A stretch of 64,000 nt of DNA from Nitzschia sp. DOCU1 (lineage: Eukaryota; Bacillariophyta; Bacillariophyceae; Bacillariales; Bacillariaceae): the NCBI GenBank assembly GCA_951394045.1, contig OX595990.1, positions 1,302,001 through 1,366,000 on the forward strand, given 5' to 3'. The notes below the pieces were generated by a model. That model did not search any database. It had not been told where the DNA came from and worked only from the letters and a program-made list of their open reading frames with translations. A program made the translations under genes and the position numbers. Each line of letters opens with the position of its first letter. Position 1 is the first letter of the stretch. Shown here piece by piece: positions 12,087-46,461 of this stretch.

Positions 12087-15000
12087 CGATGTGAGCCGGT
12101 GACTACGTGTGAAAATAATAATAATAGTGGTAAATTGAACGATTACACTAGCTTTACCCAGAGGGACGACGTCCAACAGATGGAAGCATTTTACAATAGC
12201 AATAGCGTTACAAGCGCAACACAAAATTTGCAAAAATCACACGCAAGTCGAAATTTCGTTAAACTAACGAAATCTCGAAGTTTCAGCTCTCTCGACGCAT
12301 GTCTGGCGGAAGCACAGCGCGAGCGCGAGCTTTACTTATTGAACACGATTCGAGGTAGTCGAACTGTAGGCTCAAACAAACGACAAAAATCCAGTCATCT
12401 AGTACCGATCACGTTTGCACGTGTTAACCAACGCGGCGGACGTCGGCAACAAGTAGTAACCGTCAAAGCACTTCTTGACTCTGGCGGTAGTGGCTGTCTC
12501 TGGAAGAAGAGCAGTGCTAGCAAACTAAAAATAAAGACCCAAAAAGCGACTACTGTATTCACGACTATGAGCGGTAGTTATAAGTGTACTGAACGCGTGA
12601 CCACGCAACTCAGTCTACCGGAACTACACGACGATCGATTGATCGAGTGGGACTTTCACCTAGCAGATGATCTAGGTAACTACGACATGATTATAGGCAG
12701 AGACCTCATGCAAGAGCTAGGTCTAGTGATCGACTTCAAGGCTATGGAAGTAGAATGGGACGATGCACGTATGCCAATGAAAGAAATAGATGCGACGACG
12801 GCGACGTCGTATCATGTACATGAACGCGGACACGTCGACGAGATGTCGGACCGCGTCAAGGAAATTCTCGACGCCAAGTACGAGAAAGCCGATGCACGTA
12901 GCATTGCTAGAGAGCAAGCTCACCTTAGTAAGGATGAGCAGAGTAAGCTAGAACAGCTACTAGCGAAATACCAGACTCTATTCGACGGTACCCTCGGCCG
13001 ATGGCGTGGGGCCCCCTATGACATTGAACTAGTAGAAGGTGCCAAGCCGTACCATGCTAGAGCGTACCCTGTACCGAAAGCGTACGAGCGTACCCTGCGC
13101 GATGAAGTCGAACGACTCTGTCAAGTCGGAGTACTCAAAAAGGTGAACCGCTCCGAATGGGGTGCGCCCACCTTTATCATCCCCAAAAAGGATGGAACAG
13201 TTCGATTCATCAACGACTTCAGAGAGTTGAACAAACGGATTAAACGCAAGCCGTATCCAATCCCGAAGATTCAGGACTTACTGATGAAGCTAGAAGGCTT
13301 TCAGTACGCGACGAGTCTCGACCTCAACATGGGTTACTACCACATAGAGTTAAGCCCAGACAGTAAGAAGCTATGTACTATCGTACTCCCTTGGGGTAAG
13401 TACGAAATGCAACGCTTGCCGATGGGGCTCTCGAATAGTCCCGACATTTTCCAAGAGAAAATGGGCACCCTCTTTGAGGATCTAGAGTACGTACGAGTGT
13501 ACATCGACGATCTACTAGAACTAACTAAAGGCGATTTTGATGACCACCTAGAGAAACTAGAAGTCATTTTCAAACGTCTAAAAGACACCGGTCTTAAGGT
13601 GAACGCCCGAAAGTCGTTCTTCGCCCGTGGCGAACTAGAATACCTTGGGTACTGGATAACGCGAGACGGAATCCAACCAGTCGCAAAGAAAGTAGAGGCT
13701 ATTCACGCTATGAAAGCACCTACCAATAAACGCGAGCTACGTAAGTTCATAGGCGTAGTTAACTACTACCGCGACATGTGGATTCGTCGCTCTGAAGTTT
13801 TAGCCCCTCTGAGTGCGCTAACTTCTAAAGAAGCCAAATGGCAATGGGGTCCGGTCGAGCAGAATGCCTTCGACACGATGAAACGAATTATAAGTAAGCA
13901 GACACTACTAACATACCCGATTTCAACATACCATTCGAAATACACACCGATGCTAGTCATACTCAGCTAGGTGCAGTGTTATCGCAACGCGGAAAACCGA
14001 TTGCGTTCTATAGTCGAAAGCTGAACCCAGCGCAAACGCGCTATACTACGACGGAACGAGAGCTTTTAGCTATCGTCGAAACACTTAAAGAATTTCGCAA
14101 TATCCTTTTGGGACAGCGAATCAGAGTCTTCACAGACCATAAAAATCTTACGTATAAAGAATTTAACACGGAGCGCGTCATGCGTTGGCGCCTCTTAATC
14201 GAGGAGTTTGGCCCCGAACTCGTCTATATCAAGGGCGAACACAACATCGTTGCGGACGCGCTTAGTCGACTCGATCTCGACGATAGAGCTTTCCCCGAAT
14301 CTCACTTAAATGAGTTTTTGGCGGGCGACGAATTACCGCACGACGCATTCCCCCTCACTTACAAGAACATAGCGCGCATGCAGAATGCCGACCGCGCCTT
14401 ATTATCTAAAGTACGTACAAACCCGCGATATTCAGTCAAAGTCTATCGTGGGGGCGGAAAGAAGCGAGAACTAATAGTACGCGAGGACAAGATTGTTCTC
14501 CCAACGAGTCTCCAGAAGCGGTGCGTCAAGTGGTATCACGAGATGCTCTGTCACCCAGGAGAAATGCGTACCGAACAAACGATTCGACAACACTTCTACT
14601 GGAAGAACATCCGCGGCGATGTCGAGCGGATCTGCAAGTCCTGTCCGACCTGTCAGCTGACAAAGCGAAAGACAATCAAGTACGGGCATCTTCCACCCAA
14701 GGCGGCAGAAATAGACCCTTGGGATACGCTATGTGTCGACCTGATAGGTCCATATAAGATAAAACAACTAGGTAGTAAAAAGACACTACAACTATGGTGT
14801 CTCACTATGATAGATCCCGCGACCGGATGGTTCGAGATGGTACGTATAGCAAATAAAGAAGCCTTCTCGATAGCCAGTGCGGCCGAAATGGCGTGGTTTA
14901 CGAGATACCCGTGGCCACAAAAGATTATTTATGACCGCGGAACTGAATTCATGGGAGAATTCCGAAGAATGGTGCGCGAAGACTACGGCGTAATGACCAA

Positions 15001-15514
15001 GCCAATTACAGCGCGAAACCCGCAGGCTAATTCAATTATCGAGCGAGTTCACCAAACCATAGGGAACATGATTCGCACTTTCGAGTTGCAAAACTCCGAA
15101 GACACGGAGTCACTGGACGGAGTCCTTGCAGCCACCATGTTCGCAGTACGCGCAACGTATCACACAACGATGCAAGCGACGCCAACACAGCTAGTGTTTG
15201 GCCGCGACGCTATCTTAAATACCCGGTTCGAAGCTAACTGGAAATTAATTAAGGAACGAAAACAATCTCGTATTATCCAAAATAACGAAGCAGAAAACAA
15301 GACGCGAAGAGTTTACCGGTATCGCGTAGGACAGAAGGTAATGGTCCGTAATGAACAATCCCGCAAGTATGGGACAAATCCTTATAGCGGTCCGTATGAG
15401 ATCGTGCACATTAATGACAATGGCTCTATTCGCATCAGAAAGGGAGCAGTGCAACAAACATATAATATCCGGAATCTGCATCCGTACGAGGAACGCGATG
15501 CTGCTGACGAGTGA
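12087..15514 (+). pseudogene. pol: pol polyprotein (protease-RT-RNase H-integrase) with a one-base frameshift
   Basis: Pol is in the same frame as the end of gag, separated only by the TGA at 12084-12086, and has no ATG at its start. Visible domains: aspartic protease (LLDSGGSG, near 12475); reverse transcriptase with the YIDD catalytic box near 13500; RNase H with DAS and later FTDHKN; integrase with an H-H-C-C zinc motif (HPGE...H...CKSCPTC, near 14550-14660) and a D, D, E core (CVDLIGPY; IIYDRGTEF; ANSIIERVHQ); and a C-terminal SGPYEIV box typical of gypsy integrases. Between 13918 and 13925 one base appears to be missing: the RNase H reading moves to another frame at YP(D)FNIPFEIHTDAS, so the first part stops at 13970. 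Otherwise the motifs are intact. Confidence 0.93.
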
Positions 15515-32515: not shown

Positions 32516-33860
32516 ATCTCGTCAATCATTTTGTTCATGGGTCATTTGTTTCCCTGTCAACGAATGCTACAATCAACTTTTGATTGTTGTGAATTAGTTT
32601 GCAAGCTGCCGCCGCCACTACAACTACAATACAAGAATAAACTTCATTATTTGTGGCTACCTCTACGAAGTTGCCGCCGCACTGTCACTGTTTCATTGAA
32701 CTCATTGGTCGTTTGTTCTTTTGAGAGGATACAACGAATGCGGCAATCAACTTCTGTGTGAGTTCTTTCACAAAGCATGGTGCTGGTGAACAACAACTAC
32801 ACTACAATACACTTCATTATTTGTTGCCACATCTAGTATGAAGTCGCCACCATGCTGCAACTGTTTTGTCAAACTCATACTTTGCTTTTCAGGTTATGAA
32901 ATGCTCTGGCTGGTACTAGCTCCTGATCAGCAGCAAGCTTTTGCCATCCTCCTCCTCTTCCTTTTGCTGTTTCCTCTCGTGCCAACAGCCATCAGCAACG
33001 GATGCAAGGATGTTGCTAGAGTAGTACGGTCAGAACTCGTCACCATACGTCATGATCTCGTGACCAACTATCTACCGCTGGTGGTGGTACTAGATAGTAG
33101 GAACAATAGTGATGATCATCGCTCTACTAGCAGGTATATGGCTAGTTGTGCTGGTCACTCTTAGTATCACTAGTAGCTATGATAAATGAGTATAACTACC
33201 GGTAGCCGTCCTTCTGTACCTGGTACGGACTCGAGCGCTATGATAGCTACTGGTGGCCTTCGGCGCACCTGCGGTGCACCGTGACCCTCGCTGCGCTCGG
33301 GTTAATCAAATTTTTTTGGCCACATACGTAAAAAAATTGCCAAGCGAAGCGGAGGAGGCCACGCGATACATCCGGGTTACTCTGGCCCGTGTTGTTGCAT
33401 TCATCACATCATCAGAATCCGAGGCCTCGCTCTTTCCCACCCTTTTCCACGTTTTCCGGGTCCTTTTCAAAAATCAAATATGCCCTATTTAGACCGGTTT
33501 TTGACCGGCCAGCGCGAATTGGAATTCAATCATAGAAAGTTACAGAACACCACAAAACGGTATTTTCGTCAATATTAGTGCCCTTTTTGACGGTTAATTT
33601 TGATGAATAGAGAAATTGGTGTCTTCAGTGTGACATTGGACGTCTTTTCGAAACGGTTGCGACACAATTTAACGCATATTCTTAAAACATCTGCGTAAAC
33701 TGCCATTTGGTTTTACGCATCCATGATCTGGAAAAATGAAACCTCGAATGCGTAAAATGTCTATATTTACTTTTACAAACGTGTGATCGGCAAATTTATA
33801 AACGAAGAAGGTTAAAGGCACCTTACATTTGGAGTGAATATAACAAATGCTTAACTTTGT
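32516..33860. other. Gene-free stretch left of the Helitron-like unit
   Basis: It holds a weak direct repeat (about 32620-32705 and 32800-32880, sharing CTTCATTATTTGT) and a GC-rich patch near 33260-33300 with the small hairpin GCACC-TGC-GGTGC. AT-rich sequence follows, in which the TTTACGCA octamer first appears (33692, 33712, 33749). No gene is supported. Confidence 0.45.
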
Positions 33861-33866
33861 CATTAC

Positions 33867-36800
33867 TCAAGGATTCAATCTGTTTCTCAAACGCTCCATC
33901 ATTGCCAAGTAGTCAGGATCTGGGGTAAACGAAATATCTTCTGGCATAGGTTTCATCAGAAACAAACCGTGTCGAGTTCGTACACGTGAAAGAACCACAT
34001 AGGCCCAATTGCGGGTATGGCTCCAATCCATTATCACCAAGCTGTCCATTGATTTACCTTGGAGTTTATGCACAGTTGTTGTGTAGTTTAACACCGCTGG
34101 AACATGTTTTAAATCCATTTGCGCCTTCAGGAGGCGCCCTTCGAACGGCATTTGTACTGTCAACTTCTTGTTGGTAGGTAGCAGATCGAAAGTGTCATCT
34201 AGTCGGAGATCACGCTTCTCCTTGTATTTCAGTTTCATAAGATTCACATCATTGATGTCGACGGTATTGACCCAACGTTCATGTACTTTCATTGGTGTCA
34301 ATTGTGCATTCGGTTTCAAAACAATGTGGTCAAACGTGCAACATGTGCCATTGGCAATGCCTTTGGACACATCAATGTTGTCACTCACCATCAATTCGCA
34401 ACCTCGGAACAGCCCAAGGAACGGATCAACTTTGTAGGACTGTTGTTTAACGTGCGCATCGGAACAGTTTTCCCAAAGATAGTGTTGCGTTTTCCCATCA
34501 AGCTGGATCTTTGAATCACCCCAATTTCCTGAACTCCGAACGATGATTGCGCCATTTGGTATTGGCGTAGCTTCGTCTTCGTAATGAAACCTCTCCAAGT
34601 AGCATCGAAACACGTTTGCGTTTATTGCGGATCTTTTTCGATTAGTGTAAACTGCATATCGAGCAGTAAGATCTTGAGGGATTTCCAAGTCGTTATTTTC
34701 AATATCACGAGTTGCGAGAATTTCTCTTAGTTTGGTTGGGTCCCCATCCCGTGCTTGTGCCATTGCTTCTCCGAGTTCCGGATCATCCTTGTAGCGATGA
34801 GTACCATCCAGTTCGACCATCACATTCAATGCAAGTTCCCAGATGGGACTTGGCGGTCCTTTGTAAATTGGGGTACCTCCGAAACCTTCAAGTTGACAAA
34901 AATCCCCCAGAAAAAGAATCGGTATCCTCCCATAAGGATATTCTTGGCATTGAGATTCTCCTTTGCACCGTTCTGAAATGCGAGCCAAATTTCCCATATG
35001 AGCGAAAGAAATCTCGTCAATGATGTAAAGACGAGTATCCGCTGCTCTTTGAATATCCTCATTCGTAACGTCCCGATCTTTCCAAAGTCCAAACAATCGA
35101 TGTGTTGTGTCACCCATAATCTCACTTGCTGCTGCACCCGTCATTGCGCTAACACGAATTGTATCTGACGTGAATTGGTGATCAATATTGGCACTGAAAG
35201 CTTTTGCATATGCAATCAATGATTCCAGAATGCGCGCTATAGCAAACGTTTTAGCCAGTGAATCCAACCTTTTCGCAAATCAATCATTCCAGTCATACAA
35301 TACTTACATTTTCCTGCACCAGCTGGACCGGTGATGAACATTACCAAAGGTGCGTTGCTTCTATCGCGTCTAGCGATGAGTTGTTTCAGCCCTTCCAATG
35401 CAAGCAAATCACCAAAACTAGTCGCATCATCGTAAAACGTCTTGACATAGGTTGCTGCCAACACTTCAAATGCTCGTTGTTGCTTCTCGTCTAGTCTGTC
35501 GCGTCTGCCCCATGCAATAATGGAGTCTTTTGATCCCGTGGTGAATCTAGGTTGATTTACTGTTTCGTACGATGTACCATCTGTGGACGATACCAATGTG
35601 TTTAGGGTGGCAACAGAACAAACAAACCGTCGTTGCACATCATCCTCATCGGCAGTATTGCTGGTGAAGGGTTGGGGGGGCGGCGCGTAAGCGATCACTG
35701 TGCGTAAAGGTGTATATTGTGTCGCATCTGGTGAAATCATAATTGCACTTGATACTTCGTCAATGCTGACAAAACTGGGTGCAATTTCGCGATAAGCTCC
35801 ATTGATCAGTCCATACAATGTTCCGAAAAGATCACTTTCCGCTGCGATTGCATTACGCAGTTGGGCTTCGTTCGCCGCCGCATCAAAATCATCGTAACGC
35901 GCAATAATGGTAGGTTCTTCTTCTTCTTCCAAGGTTGTTTCATCTGTCAATGGGTTAGTAGGCAATCGAACTCGTAGCGAATTGTGAATGTCTTGAATGT
36001 GGTTCGCAATTCTTTTCACATCATCCGTGATGATAGATAAGTTAGCTCGAAATGCTTCTTGGTAGGATGCATGTTCTCCCAATAGTTCTTCAAATTTCCA
36101 AAATGGTTTGAACAACAGAAGAAACCGACGGCAGTATGTTTCTCTCTTTTCATAGTATTGCGAATCGGAGTTGACTGGTGTGGAATCCAACAACGACCCA
36201 CCGAGTTCATTCGTACTTGTGAGAAACGACCAGGGAATGACTCCCACCTTTGGCTTACGGTGCTCAACGATTGCATGCGTAATGCATAATGGATGTCCTT
36301 CATCAAATTCGTATACTTCGTCTGAAACATTTGTTGCGACACTTTGACACAAAACCTCCGTTCGTTGAAAGAACTGAAAGAATGACATGTAGTGAAACTT
36401 TTCCCCGCGATAAATGTAATGCATTGGTCGTAAATAGAATGCAAGTTTGCCATGTACAACTCGAAAAACTCCACCGGTCTTTTTCTTCAACATCCAAGAC
36501 TCTGCTGAATGAACAGGAATGTTTGCCGTGTCATGGGAGAAACGAAATCTTGATTCCCGCATTGACAAATAATGTGCCATTGGGGCTGCACATATATGTG
36601 CACGACAGTGGGAATTAATGCTTCCCAACATTCTTTTGAATCCCTCTTCATGTGGCGAAATGTCACTCTCCGTTTGTTGCAATCGCTGTTCGACCATCCT
36701 TGCCATTGTGTCAGAAACGTTTTTGAAGTCAGCGTTATCTTGTTTTTGCGTCGGCTTGGTGTTGTAGCCAGTAGTATAGAAGACTGCCGGTCCATTGATC

Positions 36801-39565
36801 CCTGCCCTGACATTTGTATTATAACCTAGTGACCTTGTCAACAATGGAGAATGAACATTCATGAATACATCTTGAATACGTCGAGCAGGTTCATAGATGA
36901 ATAAACAACGGGGATAGCGACGTCCATACAGATCACACCAATCATCGTTTGTTGCTTTTGTCACAAGACAGCTAGAATCGTTCGGTTGCTCAGGCAAGTT
37001 GAAGCAACATTCGCATCCTTTCAGAAAACATCGTCTGGCATGAAGGTATCGGTGAATGTTGGAAATGACATTATTCATGAAACCTCGTTTTGCGATCTCA
37101 TTGTCACTGCGCTCCCACCATTCAACGTCCATTTGATTGTTGAAGACGTAATGATCCAATCTTTTGTTGTCATCTTGATAACTGTAGCGATCCGATTGCA
37201 TGAGATATTGCACTGCTTTTGTCACGACATCATCCAACTTCAGCTTTGCTCCACATTTCTTACAAGTTGCAAGTTGACCTTCGATTTCTTGGCATTTGCG
37301 TTTGTGCCGCATGGCGTGTAATGTCGACTTGTCAACAGCATCAATTTTGTACTCATTCTGTCGACGCTGACGTACTATCATGTTTCCAGCTTCATCTCGG
37401 CGTCGCCGCTTGTACATTCGTTGCGAAGAACATTCATCATGAGCAAAAACTGGATGACTTTGGAAAATTCCATGCTCTAGATCTTCTTCCCGGAATAACT
37501 GAGCACTGCATATGTTGTCACAAAACTCCAAGATGATTTGTTTTGCTCTACTGCGTGTCGTTTTGTCAACACGCATGTCTTGAGCATTTTTCATAAGTTC
37601 AGGCCACCCCTCTATGAATAACAAGAAATGACCATGCAATGTTTTACGTCCTTGCTCTTCCGTTGCTAAACACCACGCTTCCAATTTTCCACATATGCCA
37701 GCACCTTTTGATTCGTTTTTCTCACAGTTCCACTGCAAAAGATGTTCGATAACGGCAGTAATAATACAGTCATATTCTTCAGCGCAAAACCCAGGATATT
37801 CTGTTCGTATTTGTTGGCGCATTCGAAATCTTTTGAGAATATGATCATCGGACATCGTTTCTGCTGCCGATGGTGGCTCGTATTGAAACCGCGAATCAGG
37901 CGGTAGTGCGTAAAGCGTGATGCGATAGTTGCGTTCGTCGTCAGGAGTAACGGTGAGGAAAATTGCCGGAAGCCCGAAATGGATTAGATAAGCAAAATAT
38001 TGACTTCGCGCTTCTCTTGCAGCTTCATTTGTATGCGGTAGTTTACTGCAAGTAGCATGAATTGAATTCAAAAACTGGGCATTCGTCCGTGTTGAATATT
38101 GGGAAGGATCACCTGCACGCACAGCTGCAATACCACGTTGCAACTCTTGCATTGTCATTCCTCCAACTGCATGTGCTAATGTGTTCCCAGATGAGTGCGT
38201 AAAGTTTGCCCGCAGACACACGTTCTTGTAAATTGTTTGTTTCATCAGAACGTTGAACACCACCAAGTTGAACAAAGCTGTTTGAAATGTTGGAATGCGT
38301 AATTGCAACCATTTACGCAGAACGGTTTGTAGCGTCCTTGTGAATGGTCGTCGAATTCGTTTAGTTGGCGAAAACGCTGTGATAACCTTGTCTACCGCCG
38401 GATCGCAGGGTAATCCGGAGTGCCCATAAGGGAATAACAGCGGGAATGCGCGAACAATGCCTTGTCCGTTATGATCTGCTAGGATGTTTGCACTCGGACG
38501 GGAATGTATGACAGCGTTGTACTTCCCATTGCAAAATCGTTCCATTACAAATTTGCGGAATTCTTCTTGCGATGCAAATCCACCATTCGTTTCCTTCAGT
38601 ACATGTGTGTTTGGTAAAACAATGGTCATGTGCAAACGATTTTCCAACGTTTCGTTTCCTCCAGCAACTGCTTCCTCCCTTTTGCATTTGTGAGAACCAA
38701 GTATAATATAAGCCTGTCAGCCATCATCCCTGTGAACTTACCAGTCTTGCGCGATGACCTGAGGTACTGGCAATTCTTCCATGGAAGGAATTTGTATACC
38801 ATGGTATAATCGATTGTTTTTCTTCAGCCATTTGAAAGCGCGTATAACCTTTCGTGGATTGATGGACGTTTGCCGCATGAGCTCAGCCTTTTGAGTGGTT
38901 GTAAACGGACCACAAAGTACCACCAGCAATTGTCCTTGCAATCCTGCGTTAGTTAAGTTGGCAATGTGTCCAACTATAGACCCTGGATCATTTTCATATA
39001 TAGTATGCCATCCCTGAATATGTTGATGGCAACCCCCAAAAAAGAACCAACTTTGACAAAACGTTCGTGCTGTACTTACGAGTGCCAATTCGATTGTGTT
39101 CAAACATGTTAACACTGCTGGCGGTTCGCCAATCATATAGGCCATTATGATTGCTGCTGGTGGGGGATAGCAGTGTGATGGTCGTTTGTCGCCGTTACTC
39201 TCAAAGTGCTTTTGGCAACTTCCACAGACAGCCACACTATCAGCTTCAACGTTGATCACCGTTCTTGGTGATAATACATAAGGTGCTAGTTCTGGACAGT
39301 TTTGCACTTTATAATGATTTACTAACGGAGAAGGATAAACGGATGCTATCCTCTCGCGTTGCATTCGACATTGTTCTGCGTACTTCGCTAATTGCTCTAT
39401 TGGGATAAATTTGCATTTCTTTTGCACTGTTGCCATTGCATCGCAAACGGAACAACATAAAGGGTGCCGATTGCCCATTATATCGACGAATACGCAGGAA
39501 TGGATTTCATTTTCAAAGTCTCGCACTAATGCTTTTTGTTGTTCAAACGACGGGTATTGCGCCAT
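33867..39565 (-). CDS. Helitron Rep/helicase transposase, three exons, 1,854 aa
   Basis: Exons: 39565-38742, 38678-35308, 35236-33867. The introns are 63 and 71 nt with GTAAGT donors and AAAAG and TATAG acceptors; splicing gives one continuous frame. Exon 1 resembles the DUF6570 N-terminal module of Helitrons (CSVCDAM...; CQSWFFFGGCHQHIQGWHTI). Exon 2 carries the Helitron-like Rep domain with the HUH box TLHGHFLLFIEG and the HRYLHARRCFLKGCECCFNLP motif, then the start of a PIF1/RecD-type helicase with Walker A GPAGAGK. Exon 3 completes it: S-RILESL, TGAAASEI, IIDEIS (Walker B), LFLGDFCQL, TTTVHKLQGKS and YVVLSRVRT. All core motifs are present, so the enzyme may be active. It nicks one strand and moves DNA by rolling circle. 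Its start lies 218 bp from the divergent histone H3 gene. I could not find the TC and CTRR ends. Confidence 0.93.
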
Positions 39566-39783
39566 TGCTTAAGACACCGCTTTAGTTAACCCTTGCTCTT
39601 TTCATGCCAAACAATGTTGTGTATTGGGTTACGCATTAGTTGGCGAATGTGGGTGAATGTTAGTTCGCTAAACGTTTGCGTAAACATAGCACTAGCGATT
39701 GTTTTACGCCGTCATTTACGCCACTACTATCGCCAAAACACAAGCCACAGCGTCAACGTTTTACGCTTATGCACATATTCATC
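39566..39783. promoter_or_regulatory. Shared promoter region of Helitron transposase and histone H3-like gene
   Basis: This 218-bp divergent spacer contains TGCGTAAA (39677-39684), GTTACGCA near 39629, and near-matches TTTACGCC and TTTACGCT. The same octamer recurs upstream of the other genes of this unit, so it is a candidate cis element. This is inferred from position and frequency. Confidence 0.5.
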
Positions 39784-40173
39784 ATGGCAAGGATCAAACC
39801 AATTCCATCTCGCAGACAAACCCAGCAACCTTTGCGTCGAACACTTTCACCAAGGAATCAAAACGTCCTGCAACGTCGTCGATTGAGACCAGGAACAATA
39901 GCACTTCGGGAAATTTGTCATTACCAACGATCAACGAACTTGATTATACCTAAATTAGCTTTCCAGAGGGTGGTTCGAGAAATTACTTGCAATCAACTTG
40001 GAAAGCAATTGCGTTTTCAAGCAAAAGCAATGTTAGCGCTTCAACATGCATCGGAAGATCATCTAACGGAGCTGTTTCATAACGCAAACAAATGTGCCAA
40101 CCATGCCAAACGCGTAACCTTAATGACTAAAGACATGCAGCTTGTCCGCCGCATCAGGGAAAAATGTGATTAA
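39784..40173 (+). CDS. Highly divergent histone H3 variant, 129 aa
   Basis: From [10 protein letters not shown] to QLVRRIREK the protein follows the whole H3 histone fold: alphaN ([19 protein letters not shown]), alpha1 ([10 protein letters not shown]), alpha2 ([19 protein letters not shown]...F) and alpha3 ([14 protein letters not shown]). I estimate 55-60% identity to canonical H3 in the fold. Oddities: loop 1 (TCNQLGKQ) is about one residue longer than in canonical H3, and the N-tail keeps only MAR.K at the start. The usual modifiable lysines are gone: the first 37 residues contain one Lys and many Arg, Gln and Pro. It is intronless, so it may descend from a processed or typically intronless copy. 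It lies head to head with the Helitron gene and shares its octamer-rich promoter. Whether it is a CENP-A-like or a novel packaging variant is open. Confidence 0.85.
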
Positions 40174-40245
40174 CATCATATACTCTAAACTAACCATCAT
40201 TATATTTTCTAGTTCTTCCTGCAATATGTTGCTGTTCCACAAGGT

Positions 40246-40777
40246 TTAGTCAATTGCGTAGTAGCAGGTGCTATCTCGTTCATCATAGTCATTCGAAACC
40301 TTTGCATTTTGCACAATCTCAAGCAGTCTATGCTTTGTCTCGCCAGAAATCTCAGTTGCGGCTGCACCTGTCGCCCCTTCAACTTTAACTTGGTGTGATG
40401 ACCATTCACGTTCAACATTTTCTACTAAAAATTGTGAACACACGATCAAGGATTGTAGAAGACGTGCTGTCGCAAATAAGTTAGTTAATGAACGCCTTTT
40501 CATCACAACCCAATAAAACACAACACTTACATTTTCCTCCACCAGCAGGTACATTCATGAACATTGTGTGACGTGAGTTCGTTGTATCACGTTTATTGAT
40601 GAGTTCTTTAAGACCTTTCAATGCACTGCACTCGTCAACACGATTGTCAACATTCGAGTACCGTTTGACATGCCTTGCAGCCAGCACTTCAATTGCTTCT
40701 TGGTACTTGTTGTCCATTCCAGCTGCTGCAAACCATATGTCAGGCAACACAGCCGTTTCGTTGTTGTTTTGATTCAT
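40246..40777 (-). CDS. Truncated second Helitron helicase copy, two exons, 155 aa
   Basis: Exon 1 is 40777-40531 and exon 2 is 40466-40246; the intron has donor GTAAGT and acceptor GACAG. The product starts at ATG, runs through the region before Walker A, VPAGGGK-S, then RLLQSLIVCS and GATGAAATEISGETKHRL, and stops at YYAID, just where the Walker B motif should come. It is clearly related to, but well diverged from, 35500-35000 of the full transposase, and it has the intron at the same place. It lacks Walker B and later motifs, so it cannot be an active helicase. It is either a decayed fragment or a retained short ORF that might bind a partner or ATP. Confidence 0.7.
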
Positions 40778-41135
40778 ATTTCGGTGCTCACTTCAATATG
40801 TAAAACAATCGACTCTAACAATGCATGCTACGACCATAAAATGATTCGCAATTTTGTCAAATTCATGTCTGCATTTGCTCTGCATTTGCTCGCTAATGGG
40901 CGAGCATAACGGTTGGGCACCCAACGCTCGAGGGACAAACATAATAACGTAAAACTTCATGGGTGTTTTTACGCACTACAAGAGTTCAATTAAGTCTCTA
41001 CTTTTCTGCCGCTCGATGTCCTTGGCTCTGACGCATCCCGCTGACAATCGTGAATTATGGTGGCTGTCATTATAAGAATCTAACTATGACACTATAACAA
41101 TTGTTTAATCTTCTACCGTGCATAAACGAAAAAGT
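40778..41135. other. Intergenic with hairpin and octamer
   Basis: Contains TTTACGCA at 40968-40975, upstream of the truncated helicase, and the hairpin at 40901-40930. No gene is seen. Confidence 0.45.
40901..40930. repeat. Hairpin with GTTGGG-CA-CCCAAC core
   Basis: The inner 6-bp arms (40912-40917 and 40920-40925) are flanked by CGAGC and GCTCG, which also pair, leaving a one-sided bulge. Helitrons end in a hairpin near CTRR, but no CTRR follows at the expected distance on either strand, so I do not call it an element end. Confidence 0.5.
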
Positions 41136-41765
41136 CTAAAGCAAATGCGAAATAGGGCTGACGGTACTGCACGACATATCATATTCCACTGTCTCGCCAC
41201 CCTCCATCTCTGTTTGCATTGCAACTTTGTAATGTCGAGACCTTTCAGCAAACTGCTGATACCACTGTTTTATAACGGGGTCTTGTGTGGATGTGGCTAA
41301 CTCATCCCAGCGTTGGGCATCACGATCCCAAATGAAATCCCAACAAGCACGATCGTTGAACCTGCACGTGCCATCTGGATTAACGTGGAGAAACTCGAAC
41401 TCCATCGAACGTTTGCGGAACCATTTCATAACAGAGCGCGTCACGGGCACTTCCATACTGTTCATCAAGATCCTCTCCAATCTGTTCACGACGTAATGGT
41501 GGCGGTCCCAATCGAATAAGGGTGCGTTATTCACGGATTCCCGATACTCCCAAAAATCATCCATATAAAATCCAATAAGTTCTTGACGATACCTTCGAAT
41601 TTTGTCATGCTCTGTTGCTTTCTCAATTTTGAACCCTATATCATTATAAAGTAAATCGTGTTCCAACAATTGGAACCTAATTAAACGAACGGGATGCGTA
41701 AAGCCATGCCAAAACAATTCCGCTTCTTCTTCCATCTGATTCTCCCAAAACCAGTATGGGTCCAT
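41136..41765 (-). CDS. Unrecognised protein in the Helitron-like unit, 209 aa
   Basis: ATG start (MDPYWFWENQ); the frame is open further upstream, but that part has a different, non-globular character. The protein is rich in Trp, Phe, Tyr, Arg, Glu and Asp, and looks like a compact soluble domain with helices (for example HDKIRRYRQELIGFYMDDFWEY and VMKWFRKRSMEFEFLHV). I see no signal, membrane segment or catalytic motif. The promoter side carries TGCGTAAA at 41959, and the gene itself contains one at 41695. Even composition and length without stops support a real gene. No family is recognised. Confidence 0.6.
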   Translation of the reverse strand: MDPYWFWENQMEEEAELFWHGFTHPVRLIRFQLLEHDLLYNDIGFKIEKATEHDKIRRYRQELIGFYMDDFWEYRESVNNAPLFDWDRHHYVVNRLERILMNSMEVPVTRSVMKWFRKRSMEFEFLHVNPDGTCRFNDRACWDFIWDRDAQRWDELATSTQDPVIKQWYQQFAERSRHYKVAMQTEMEGGETVEYDMSCSTVSPISHLL

Positions 41766-42011
41766 ACTTGTATGTGTGTGAAACAAGTACAACCTGTATG
41801 TGTACCCAAAAAGAACAACAAACTTTTGTGAAAATGATACATTCCCCAATCAACTAAGGGCGTCCCTGCCTTTAACCCATTCGTATTTTGGTTCGCCAAT
41901 AAGCGAAAAAAGGCATTTACGCTTTCTAGAAGAACATTGCGCTATTAGCGACTTACTGTGCGTAAATTAAAAATCAACTGCGAAAACCTTTGTGACGTAA
42001 AACGCATTACG

Positions 42012-42236
42012 TGCGTTACGCACAAATATCACACCAATCACATCTACGCCCGGTTGCACAATTCGTCAATACGGTATACTGCGTAAAGATATTCATTGAA
42101 TTTACTTAATAACCAATTGGCGACAAAAACCATCTTCAAATGCGTAATTTTCACATAGAGGATATATTATCGCTGCATATGTGTTGCGTGATACTGCAAA
42201 GATTCATTGGCAATAACCATATTTTTGCGTTACGCA
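42012..42236. promoter_or_regulatory. Two TGCGTTACGCA palindromes upstream of the 222-aa gene
   Basis: The 11-bp sequence TGCGTTACGCA occurs at 42012-42022 and 42226-42236. It fuses two inverted octamer halves (TGCGT and ACGCA). This is the arrangement expected for a dimeric DNA-binding protein. It lies in the divergent spacer between the 209-aa and 222-aa genes. Confidence 0.5.
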
Positions 42237-42308
42237 CGAACCTTTCATTCCTTTCCATTTGGAAAACAACACATCTTTTCCTTCGTCCTCAATCAAACTT
42301 TACGCAAT

Positions 42309-42977
42309 ATGTCAAAGCCTTCCCCCATGCGTAAAGCCAAAGACAAAGAGCTGGTGAAACGTGCAAGCCCGATGAAATCTAAGAAGCCTCTGTTGAGTCC
42401 TCAGAAAAAGCCTAACTTGCGTGTTGTTTGCTACAGCTTTGCGGAAGCCATTCCGTTCGAAATCTATTTGTACGAGAAAACGGAGACTGAAGACGGATAC
42501 ACTGCGGGATTGGCCAAGTATATTCGACAAGATTTCGAGGAAAGGCATTCCCTTATGGACGAATGCAACTTCATTCGAACCTTGAACCACCGTCGTCCTA
42601 ACACCAATGATCAAGAGATGACCAACCCAGGCGATGGGTATGCTCGGAGAGTTTTCCTCCGTCAGCCAACAAGCGGGGAAAGTACCGTCGAAACCAGGCA
42701 AGCTGGATTGAATGCTTTGCGCAGTTTCATCATGGATTCTCGATTCTCAAAATATCCGCCTAAAGAAGTCGACATGGTTGATAAAACCGATTACGCTGCT
42801 CAGCCTCCAATTTCAATGGACGATTTCCTCAAGAATGCCGACATTGACTTCATCGTTGAGCATTCTTTTGATGAATCAGAATGGAACGATGGATTCAAAG
42901 AACGCTATCCCAATCTTGCCAACACCATCTGGAAGCATGATCACGTCACTGCATTTGCGCGACGTTTGGGCTGGTAG
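42309..42977 (+). CDS. Unrecognised protein with basic SPxK-rich N-terminus, 222 aa
   Basis: The start is placed at MSKPSPMRKAKDKE because TTTACGCA ends three bases before this ATG and the upstream extension is of different character. The first 35 residues are basic with SP motifs (KPSPMRK, RASPMKSKK, LLSPQKK), a pattern seen in DNA-binding tails of linker-histone-like proteins. The rest looks globular: VVCYSFAEAIPFEIYLYEK, then a region with RRVFLRQP, and a C-terminal IWKHDHVTAFARRLGW. I recognise no family. It sits in the octamer-rich unit with copies at 42080, 42299 and 42328. Confidence 0.62.
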   Translation: MSKPSPMRKAKDKELVKRASPMKSKKPLLSPQKKPNLRVVCYSFAEAIPFEIYLYEKTETEDGYTAGLAKYIRQDFEERHSLMDECNFIRTLNHRRPNTNDQEMTNPGDGYARRVFLRQPTSGESTVETRQAGLNALRSFIMDSRFSKYPPKEVDMVDKTDYAAQPPISMDDFLKNADIDFIVEHSFDESEWNDGFKERYPNLANTIWKHDHVTAFARRLGW

Positions 42978-43125
42978 AAACGAAATTCGTCATTACTATC
43001 ACTTGATACATCCCTAGAAACGTTAATAACTATGTAAATTGTTTCATCATTTCTGTTACTAAAAATATGAACACTCTTTACATCTAATAGTCACCAATAT
43101 TATTTTTACGCATTTCGACTCTTCT

Positions 43126-45819
43126 TTACGCATTTCGACTCTTCTTGTTGCTCACACTAAGCCCTTTCTTTTCAACTATTTTGCGCTTGGGGCGACTTTT
43201 CTTCACTTCATCATCATCATTGATCTTGCCAAGATCGAGAAACGATGCTTCCTCTCCAGACACCGCCTTGTCCGTTCCTTTACCCACCCTAGTTCCGACA
43301 GCTACTGCTTTTTCATCATCAACACCACCTTCTTTCGCCTTGACTCCGACATTCAACGAAAAATTCTTCGCAGATAACTTTTGCTCATCATCTTCTCCTT
43401 TACCCTTGGACCCATCTGCCTTCCTTCCAACTCTAGGACTAATTGTATTGAAGTCCAACGTGAAACCCTCATCAGCAGAATTTTTGTCATCTTCACTTCC
43501 AACATGTGCCTTCGAGACATTACGCGCAACCGCCACCTTGGGGCTTCCTGTCGTATCTTCCTTTCCAACGTTTCTGCTGCCTACTGACAATTTACAATCA
43601 TTGTTAGTCACAATTACGCAGCAATTTACACTTCAAAACATATCAAAATTGCACTTACTCATCAAAACGTCGCCCCTCATATGATAGCCAACATCTAAGT
43701 CGATGGTCGTCGACTTATTGCCACCAACAGCCTTTCCTTTTTCATTCACATTTGCACTTCCAGCTAGTACAAAGGTTCCTTTCGAGTTTTGGATTTCGAA
43801 GGTTCCAGTGTCCTTCTCCTTTTTAACAACGCCCTCTGCAACTGTCAAACTTTGAGTGGAGGAATCCTCCATGAACGCTCCAACCTTATCTATCCTCTGC
43901 ATTACTTGTTTCGCCATAGTAACAGAAGTGGTCCGAACAACGGGGTTGTTTGACGCTTCTTCATTAATGTTCCAAAGAATTTCACTAAAAGCAATTTCAA
44001 AATGTTAGACGGATTCGACAGATGACGACTTCCACCATAATACTTACTTCTTCATGAGAAACTCCGCAATGAATATCAACTTCTCCATTTTTTCCTTAGA
44101 AATGCTCGAAAAGGCGGAAACTTGCGTTTCCAAGTTCGAACCTTGCTTATCGATCTTCTCAACAGTTTTTGTCAAACTGTCAATTTGGTTTGCCATCTCC
44201 CTTACGATTTTGCTCAACTCGACATGGTTTTTGCCCACATTGTGCATCAAACCGTTAAACTTCTCCTTCAGCTCCGAAATGCCCTTGCTCAACTCTCCAT
44301 GATTTTCGCCCGCATTTTGCATCCAACCGTTCATCTTCTCCTTCAGTTCCAAAATTTCCTTGTTCAATCCAGCAACTGATTCTTTTTCATTCGCCGTTAC
44401 GCCTCTTCCTTTCCCCCCACGTGCCGACGGTTTCAAGTCACCATCATTCTCCTTGACCGCCGTCCCGTCTCTTCGTTTCACCGCACGCGCCGACGGTTTC
44501 GAGTCACCACGCAAATGAAGAACTTTCTCCTTGTCGCACTCTATCAACCAATTACGCAACGCGATGTCGTAACCAATCTTCGACATGATCTCCTTGCTCT
44601 TGGTCAAATACTGCAAGTAAATCATCTTAACTTTTGGATTGGTGAAGAACGCAATATCCTCCTTGTTCTTTTCGATCCGGTCCATTAAGGGGAGCAAAGC
44701 ACAGTGCAACAACAAAATCGAGGATGTTTGGATCCCATGGCATTGTGCCGCTTTCGGAGCACTTCCTTGTTTGCGATGAATTGCTTGTTTAGCTTGCAAA
44801 TTCTGATTCATAAAATGCTCTTCGTTATTGCAGATTTTGTGCAGCTCCATGATTTCAACCACACCTTCATCGGTGCAAGCTGACGCCAGCACAAACCCAA
44901 ACTGTTTCAACATAGGCCAATAGTTCTGGTCACTAGAAAGAACTTTAAATGCCGGTTTACTTCAAGAAGGTTAGCAACCTTTCCACCTGTCAAAATACAT
45001 ATCCCTCATTTACTTACATCTGATTTTCGATTCCTCCAGTCGTATCCATAACGTTCGAAAGCGCCAAGTACCAAAGCAACAACATCACCTGTACCCCAGA
45101 CGTATCCTTCGGTCCGTTCTTGGGCAAAACCTTCTCAAACTGACTCCAAACTTCACACTTTTCAAACAATTCAGAATTGAATTTTAACAGCTCTCCAAAG
45201 ACTCCTTTGCACGACATGTCCGGATTTCCTTGAAGATTCTTGCTATCAGTCACAACAGACTTTACCAACCCTTCCATGACGCTTAAGTCCTGCGCAAAAT
45301 CAATTTGATCCTTCTTACCCTCGCTTAGAAGATATTCTTTGACGCCACATTAGTTTCTTTTCTTACGCTTTTCACATCAATCCTCTTTTGCTTACCTACA
45401 AAAACCGTAATAGCCGTCCAAAAGTTGTTGATTTCCCCCAAACTTTTATCAACCATGAAAAGAATATCCACCATCCAATGGTTAAGCATCTGAACAGCTT
45501 CCAGCATTTTCCGCTTATCCTGGGAATACTCGGGAAAAGCAATGGGAGCAATGCCCGAAACACTAGCTTCCTCACGCAGTTGCTTTACGTTCTCAACAAG
45601 CGCTTCGTACTTCATCGCTTTCGCCAAGTCATCCTCGTACAAACCCTTTACTCCTTCTTCCTCCCTCACATCGTCCAAAAAATTATATTTTTGAACCCTA
45701 TCGAACCCTTCATTCAACAACTTTGCCACATACTTCAACTTTGCCACCGCCTCCGACTGTGGGTTAGACTGTGGGTTATTCCAAGCGTACAACTTCTTCA
45801 ATTCTTCCTCAGGATCCAT
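43126..45819 (-). CDS. Five-exon coiled-coil protein of the Helitron-like unit, 797 aa
   Basis: Exons: 45819-45367, 45289-45018, 44932-44048, 43984-43659, 43583-43126. All four introns have GTAAG donors and AG acceptors (CGCAG, TCTAG, TTTAG, TCAG), and every junction keeps the frame. The first junction is the least certain because a second GTAAGC donor lies 28 nt earlier, but only the one used is in phase. The N-terminal half is helical and acidic (MDPEEELKKLYAWNNPQ). The middle has a regular coiled coil made of two near-repeats (GWMQNAGENHGELSKGISEL and GLMHNVGKNHVELSKIVREM). The C-terminus is low-complexity Lys/Asp/Gly/Val-rich and ends in a basic stretch (SRPKRKIVEKK) that may be a nuclear signal. 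No family is recognised. TTTACGCA copies lie at both ends (45880; 43125 and 43105). Confidence 0.72.
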
Positions 45820-45879
45820 ATGGTTTCTCTCGATTTCAAAGCTGCAACAAATCTTTGTCTTCCTGTTTCTATCGCAACC

Positions 45880-46344
45880 TTTACGCACTAAATCTCCCCA
45901 ATCCCGGATTTTCCTGCAAACAGCTGTTCAGGAAGCACGACGAATTCTCTTTACGCACTTCCATTTATATGTTATTCGTGCTGTATTATCTTATATCTTT
46001 CATCCTCCAATCACAATGCTTTCTGTTGCCCCTGCAGACGAAATCAACTTCCATGGACACAAGAAAATTTCGCCATCCCCAACACCTGGTACCAGCTGCA
46101 CGTGTCCACCTTTACGCGCTAAATCCCCCGAATCCCAGATTTTCCTGCAATCACCTGTTTAGGCGGCACAACCAATTCTTTTACGCACTTCCATTTCCAT
46201 TTATATATTATTCGTGCTGTAATATCTTAAATCTTTTATCCTCCAATCACAATGCTTTCTGTTGCACCTGCAGGCGGACTCAGCTTCCACGGACACAAGG
46301 AAACTTCGCCATCCCCAATACCTGGTACCAGTTACACGCTTCCA
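45880..46344 (+). repeat. 230-bp tandem duplication with twin small ORF starts
   Basis: Copy A is 45880-46109 and copy B is about 46110-46344, with a period of 230 bp. Each copy has TTTACGC(A/G) at its start, a second TTTACGCA 70 bp on, and about 65-70 bp later an ATG opening MLSVAPA..FHGHK..SPSP.PGTS. In copy A (ATG 46016) the frame stops about 50 codons later, inside copy B; in copy B it continues to 46461. Confidence 0.8.
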
Positions 46345-46461
46345 CGTGGCAAGGACATTATGCTCCAAGTCATGGTTCACCTCCAAGTGGTTCCTAAATT
46401 GCCCTCCGTGCTGTCCCCAACCATACATACATTGAAGGCCGAGCTCCCTACCAATGCATAA
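46252..46461 (+). CDS. Small protein from the duplicated unit, 69 aa
   Basis: ATG start with TTTACGCA 72 bp upstream. The sequence begins MLSVAPAGGLSFHGHKETSP and continues with a hydrophobic DIMLQVMVHLQVV segment. The same start is present in the preceding tandem copy at 46016, where the frame ends early. No family is recognised. The conserved start and promoter motif are the only support, so this may be non-coding. Confidence 0.4.
   Translation: MLSVAPAGGLSFHGHKETSPSPIPGTSYTLPRGKDIMLQVMVHLQVVPKLPSVLSPTIHTLKAELPTNA

Follow-up and report, generated by a model that had tools for sequence, protein, structure and literature searches.

We found that a divergent histone H3 is encoded inside a Helitron in the window, the 64-kb stretch of diatom DNA analysed here, and that this gene is present in the same arrangement with the transposase gene at six loci of the genome. 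The protein is under purifying selection between the two subfamilies of the element, and H3 carriage extends beyond the window to about eight element lineages in the same genome. The features of the element in the window are as follows.

33418–46455, minus strand (transposase sense): mobile element (Helitron, 13,038 bp), delimited by a six-copy alignment
33867–35236, minus strand: transposase exon 3 (PIF1-like helicase); AAA_30 at 3e-5, below the Pfam cut-off, and a profile of relatives
35308–38678, minus strand: transposase exon 2 (Helitron_like_N Rep with HGH motif); Pfam PF14214, 9e-14
38742–39565, minus strand: transposase exon 1 (DUF6570); Pfam PF20209, 3.5e-13, and splice reading
39566–39783, no strand: spacer of 218 bp separating the H3 start from the divergent transposase start; putative promoter
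39784–40173, plus strand: element-encoded histone H3 variant, 129 aa; Pfam Histone, intact in six of six copies, dN/dS
40246–40777, minus strand: truncated piece of a second helicase (Walker A half), ~155 aa, interrupted by a 64-bp intron; DNA match to the element's own helicase
41139–41849, minus strand: ORF237, conserved coding; longest frame, TTG start
42207–42977, plus strand: ORF256, conserved coding; longest frame, TTG start
44044–44913, minus strand: ORF289, conserved coding over the aligned part; weak coiled-coil-type Pfam match

The initial annotation had described the reading frame at 39784–40173 as a complete H3 fold with a tail almost free of lysines and an altered loop 1, and all three features were borne out. 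The Pfam Histone profile scored 123 bits on the longer frame 39676–40170, the top PDB match by sequence was a nucleosomal H3 (E 7e-32), and 56 of 94 core positions are identical to host H3; together with the fold matches, these results trace the H3-specific core over its full length. An AlphaFold model was modest (mean pLDDT 64.4) with the four expected helices present, and its Foldseek matches were H3 chains with a probability of 1.00, TM scores of ~0.43–0.45 and rmsd values of 13–21. Because these TM scores are low and the model is modest, the identification as H3 leans mainly on sequence. The tail contains one lysine in the first 37 residues, compared to eight in 45 in host H3, with K9, K27, K36 and most other tail lysines absent, and loop 1 exceeds that of host H3 by one residue. 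The core retains R83 and F84 as well as C110, H113, R116, D123 and L126, the last five of which we take to be H3–H3' and H4 contact positions, while K56 is replaced by R, R63 by P and T107 by A. Retention of these contact positions favours a functional H3 of the nucleosomal type. A histone-fold protein acting outside the nucleosome, for example as a DNA-binding partner of the transposase, would fit the Pfam matches to the histone folds of CENP-T and TAF, which were weak and below threshold, and the changes of the core surface brought about by T107A and the longer loop 1, but it accords poorly with a full-length H3 architecture that includes an N-terminal tail and these contact residues, and we regard it as improbable to a high degree. 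Other core histones nearby had been considered absent, and the genome-wide Pfam search indeed returned no further histone match within the 64-kb window.

The reading frame facing the H3 gene turned out to be exon 1 of a Helitron transposase. Removing two introns with GT...AG borders (38679–38741 and 35237–35307) yielded a stop-free frame of 1,854 aa with the domain order DUF6570, Helitron Rep (HGH motif) and PIF1-like helicase, and long public relatives contain the same domain set within one protein. The fusion of an HUH Rep to an SF1/PIF1 helicase was evident from the HGH motif at residue 623 and from Walker A and B motifs, and a profile built from seven full-length relatives matched PIF1 helicases and Helraiser in the PDB. 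Elsewhere the transposase has suffered damage, with an in-frame stop in exon 1 of the copy on contig C10, another in the Rep part of the copy on C7, and a Rep split into several matches in the copy on C12, while the H3 frame is intact in all six copies. The H3 start lies 218 bp from the divergent transposase start, head to head as annotated, and this spacer is presumed to serve as a shared promoter of both genes. The spacer had also been called rich in an octamer. This was only partly correct. In the window, TTTTACGC occurs twice in the spacer and seven times overall, always within the element, and the heptamer TTTACGC has 24 of its 28 sites inside the element, four of them in the spacer; subfamily B has not conserved these TTTACGC sites in its spacer, with one at this position in C12 and C7 and none in C10.

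The six copies fall into subfamily A, consisting of the window copy and those on C5 and C1, and subfamily B, consisting of those on C10, C12 and C7. Homology ends at common points, on the right side in six of six copies (position 46455 in the window) and on the left side in five of six (33415–33418, blurred by microhomology), the sequence of C12 not reaching that far. Because the copies stop at the same two ends, the H3 gene lies well within the 13-kb element, ~6 kb from its border. The flanks were unrelated among the three copies read, and the C5 and C1 copies are 99.6% identical across 12,970 bp. In three copies the element starts with ATTGGTAGGG and ends with GAGCGAGGCCTCGGA, and a terminal palindrome, CGAGGCCTCG, is present. 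These ends are not of the TC...CTRR type, and 5'-TC and 3'-CTRR ends are known only from the Helitron1 group. The ends of Helitron2 differ from those of Helitron1 (PMC3627910). No target-site duplication was visible by eye at three copies. The proposal of a transposon-borne H3 was thus substantiated, since the gene lies within a mobile unit with ends common to the copies and differing flanks, and is under purifying selection between subfamilies. Six copies in one arrangement and the selection on the protein together exclude a chance association.

The remainder of the element contains further coding regions. The truncated helicase piece next to the H3 gene shares ~40% protein identity with the helicase of the element itself, as measured in other copies, and appears weakly constrained or decaying, with no clear conservation as protein between the subfamilies. 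A truncated helicase piece resembling the respective element's own helicase type adjoins H3 in three elements, namely in the window (40246–40777), at L011:3866–4447 and at L020:5326–5763, in differing orientations. The three reading frames of 237, 256 and 289 codons in the right part of the element showed protein-level conservation between the subfamilies. For ORF237, 594–610 of 711 bp were alignable in other copies, and the comparison of the window with C10 gave a dS of 0.86 and a dN of 0.19 (p 3e-13 in frame). The ORF256 alignment contains a single in-frame stop each in C10 and C7, and the window–C5 pair of ORF289 was by itself not significant (p 0.16). Relatives of ORF256 and ORF289 also occur in a sister element without H3. 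Apart from the Helitron, the window contains a retrotransposon at 12099–15511 with reverse transcriptase, RNase H and integrase distributed across two reading frames (Pfam).

The initial annotation had proposed dN/dS values across copies as a check for mere neutral decay, and we found constraint between the subfamilies that was not visible among the youngest copies. In the nine A–B pairs, the H3 gene showed dN/dS values of 0.15–0.22 at dS values of 0.33–0.50. A repeat on three of these pairs, which share history and are not independent, gave 0.16–0.23 with Fisher p values of 3e-10 to 6e-6; in both wrong frames dN was about equal to or larger than dS. Purifying selection has thus acted on the H3 protein between subfamilies A and B. 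The transposase parts were under stronger constraint than H3, with values of 0.11–0.13 for the Rep, 0.11–0.15 for DUF6570 and ~0.05 for the helicase. No constraint was visible in the youngest pair, C12–C7, with two synonymous and eight non-synonymous changes (dN/dS 1.28), while C5 and C1 differ by one change and the window–C5 pair by five and five (p 0.054), a pattern that looks alike in one wrong frame of that pair. Such a weak signal in close pairs is expected if the transposing lineage is selected and resident copies then drift. Among class II H3 genes (defined below), the pairs L018–L019 (0.42, p 0.003) and L019–L021 (0.40, p 0.001) showed constraint, although L019 carries a stop, and the pairs L018–L021 (0.65, p 0.34) and L024–L026 (0.44, p 0.13) remained below significance. 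These values bear on the idea that the gene is a mere passenger, i.e., a captured host H3 with no role in the element. Gene capture is typical of Helitrons (PMC4778049), a host H3 is reported to have been captured and multiplied by a hAT transposon in fungi, its copies then being inactivated (PMC6710886), and the youngest copies indeed pair without visible constraint. However, six of six copies have remained intact over the A–B distances with the low dN/dS values given above, and H3 recurs in about eight element lineages with common derived residues, which leaves the passenger explanation very unlikely.

A divergent H3 with an altered loop 1 may also be an ordinary host variant such as CenH3 that happens to neighbour a Helitron. 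CenH3 (CENP-A) is characterised by W replacing F84 and by a longer loop 1, and the divergent tail and longer loop 1 of the window protein recall it in general terms. We identified a CenH3-like gene elsewhere, at C6:3437072 (L014:4770–5039, minus strand), with the loop 1 sequence SMTRTAYSWQ, the sole such Pfam match, and with an apparent upstream exon. Its neighbours include reading frames resembling aspartate-semialdehyde dehydrogenase by eye, and the nearest class I Rep found lies 796 kb away; it is probably the host CenH3. Because this separate CenH3-like host gene exists, the window H3 is not CenH3. We rejected CenH3 identity also because F84 is kept, loop 1 is longer by only one residue, and six mobile copies exist. 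At the F84 place, the nine aligned mobile H3 proteins contain F in eight cases, L in one (L016) and W in none. The possibility raised beforehand, that the gene would be found as the species' host variant at a Helitron-free locus, did not materialise, the CenH3-like gene being a different locus, and with six copies moving with the element we give a chance neighbourhood practically no credence.

To place the window element in its genomic context, we used the 52.1-Mb genome in 63 contigs, in which 38 Pfam histone matches were found; all counts are lower bounds. (The same genome gave 18 Pfam matches to silicon transporter genes, several of them exons of one gene, in good agreement with the diatom origin assumed in the initial annotation.) Host H3-type loci comprised five ordinary H3 genes and the CenH3-like gene, and divergent non-host loci numbered 19 (20 matches, one gene being split). 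Of the non-H3 histone matches, two were read: L040 is a host-type H2A and L041 is NF-YC-like by eye. Rep genes were sorted into class I, defined by Pfam Helitron_like_N (26 matches, 25 merged loci), and class II, defined by a very divergent protein first noticed next to other H3 genes, with PIF1 helicase and GIY-YIG parts (39 matches, of which 28 were entered, since the 11 others were fragments of these loci; 23 loci after merging). A Rep gene of either class lay no more than 15 kb from 17 of the 19 non-host H3 loci and from none of the six host loci, the closest of which was 88 kb away, while such Rep surroundings make up ~3.2% of the genome. The two exceptions were L028, 17 kb from a Rep, and the broken copy L023, which has no Rep near it and is accompanied by relatives of the cargo of the L016 element. 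Because elements copy themselves, these loci are not independent; by our count they represent about eight element lineages. Four of the 19 mobile loci are broken, by stops in L019, L020 and L023 and by the split in L028. At L028 (C1:3801716 and 3807653), an insertion of ~5.75 kb interrupts the H3 gene, and a 5-base overlap at its junctions resembles a target-site duplication.

We favour the reading that the window H3 is an accessory gene of the Helitron and acts as a replacement H3 variant that pairs with host H4 on the chromatin of the element, and we consider this function, as read from the sequence, rather probable. H3 and the divergent transposase would be co-expressed from the shared promoter, and the element H3 would then pair with host H4 to form variant tetramers or nucleosomes. 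These may be deposited on element DNA, either on the donor copy or on the new double-stranded rolling-circle product, a step that we infer. Because K9, K27, K36 and most tail lysines are missing, the usual lysine-based silencing marks would be impossible on this protein, and the element chromatin would stay usable for transcription and replication. Alternatively, the element H3 may supplement a low supply of host H3. The lost tail lysines are consistent with an escape from lysine marks in the window family. Because the H3 proteins of other elements keep two to six tail lysines, this loss is not a general rule. The main rival is an effect on host chromatin, in which the element H3 is incorporated there or sequesters chaperones or modifying enzymes, thereby disturbing silencing or the cell cycle to the benefit of the element. 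A histone diffuses and is by itself blind to element versus host DNA, both the core surface and the tail are changed with respect to host H3, and giant viruses encode histones as well. We rank deposition on element chromatin as most likely, and such a host-directed action appears unlikely, if less so than the other alternatives.

The statement that no Helitron with its own H3 had been described held up, as neither a Helitron nor any other transposon encoding a functional H3, and hence no precedent, appeared among the literature matches listed (open-licence PMC, preprints excluded; 20 of 803 and 20 of 712 matches in two cases). The nearest precedent is a fungal hAT transposon, which amplified a host H3 in Pseudocercospora fijiensis and its relatives with copies inactivated by RIP, and tens of potentially active H3 copies are reported from Pyrenophora tritici-repentis (PMC6710886). 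Like the window element, the fungal hAT is a DNA transposon carrying and amplifying a histone H3 sequence, but its H3 is a captured housekeeping gene inactivated by RIP, whereas the Helitron H3 is divergent, intact, selected and recurs across lineages. The nearest functional analogue may be the histones of giant viruses (Melbournevirus, Medusavirus and clandestinovirus), selfish elements with core histones of their own; Melbournevirus reportedly has H4–H3 and H2B–H2A doublets and Medusavirus all four core histones, while the window element has H3 alone. With Helitrons and Helentrons (Helitron2) of the DUF6570–Rep–helicase type, the element shares the transposase domains and the HUH and PIF1 motifs, and it differs by the added H3, at least three further conserved reading frames and ends other than TC...CTRR. 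Host CenH3 is likewise a divergent H3 with altered tail and loop 1, but the window H3 keeps F84, lacks the W and is mobile. Hosts silence transposons largely via histone H3 marks, and an element H3 maintained by selection, with few tail lysines left to be marked, would intervene directly in the contest between host and transposon and represent a new kind of transposon gene. If the proposed role is true, a selfish element supplies its own nucleosome component and sets its own chromatin state, and a Helitron-carried H3 suggests that jumping genes may shape DNA packaging. With six copies and about eight lineages, the idea can be tested in a diatom by protein location, silencing and transposition.

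The mobile H3 genes may have one origin or several. In the aligned mobile proteins, T107 is replaced by A and loop 1 surpasses that of host H3 by at least one residue. A loop 1 of such length is also present in some ordinary public H3 proteins (P0326, P0329, P0065, P0082, P0087 and P0092), while the A was present in two of 210 public proteins with a readable motif (333 proteins in total), P0001 and P0002, both close to the window H3. The public relatives of the window H3 number two, with 95% and 65% identity. In a first tree of 36 rows, the mobile H3 proteins were not united and the deeper forks stayed open; in a second tree of 29 rows, with other rows and columns, 13 mobile rows including P0002 lay on one side of a branch with 90/82 support. 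This grouping is not decisive, as it places them on one side of a branch and shows no clade. Constraining the window lineage and host H3 to one clade was not rejected (p 0.06). A profile of nine H3 proteins, eight from the genome and P0002, retrieved mostly ordinary or tandem-duplicated H3 proteins among the best 120 of a capped set of 7,996 candidates scored in a protein database, and this search has little bearing on the spread of the lineage; among 32 pattern matches in viral contigs, no relatives were confirmed. A transposon-specific H3 lineage marked by T107A and a long loop 1, which would have a single origin, have passed between the two highly dissimilar Helitron-like classes in diatoms and provide self-type chromatin on element DNA, is a conceivable scenario that we hold tentatively and with more doubt than belief.

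H3 carriage varies in both classes of elements. Among the class I Rep loci, six of 25 have an H3, and among those of class II, 12 of 23 (a tally including L028), whereas 19 of 25 and 11 of 23, respectively, have no Pfam histone match near them; because so many Rep loci are without H3, it is dispensable. In the sister class I element C10:688637, DUF6570 directly adjoins a relative of ORF256 (43%) with no H3 in between, so either the window lineage acquired the block of H3, truncated helicase and ORF237 or the sister element lost it. The class II protein at L017:5360–9901 (minus strand), with ~22 further loci, contains a PIF1 helicase and a C-terminal GIY-YIG nuclease in frames of up to ~2,500 codons and no Pfam Helitron_like_N match. 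Its helicase part matches known ones (hhalign 94.7%; PIF1 4e-7), a comparison of its Rep part with the Helitron Rep by a profile of two sequences only returned nothing, and the motifs FFTQSCN, SHIHAIL and YLAKY were read by eye against Helitron motifs; by helicase and by these motifs, the class II Rep appears Helitron-like. The class II element C12:1460640, whose Rep is 75% identical to that of L017, lacks an H3 in the 3 kb beyond the Rep where the L017 element has one, and a purpose-built H3 profile found none at the corresponding place in the sister elements L039 and L042. Because such sister Helitrons without H3 exist, H3 is to be seen as an accessory gene that was gained or lost. The reading frames L022:8767–9507 (minus strand) and L024:1015–1800 (plus strand), both in class II elements with an H3, weakly resemble SET domains (for L022, Pfam SET at E 0.034, which misses the cut-off; for L024, no match in the PDB), and if this resemblance is real, class II elements carry a histone methyltransferase-like protein beside H3.
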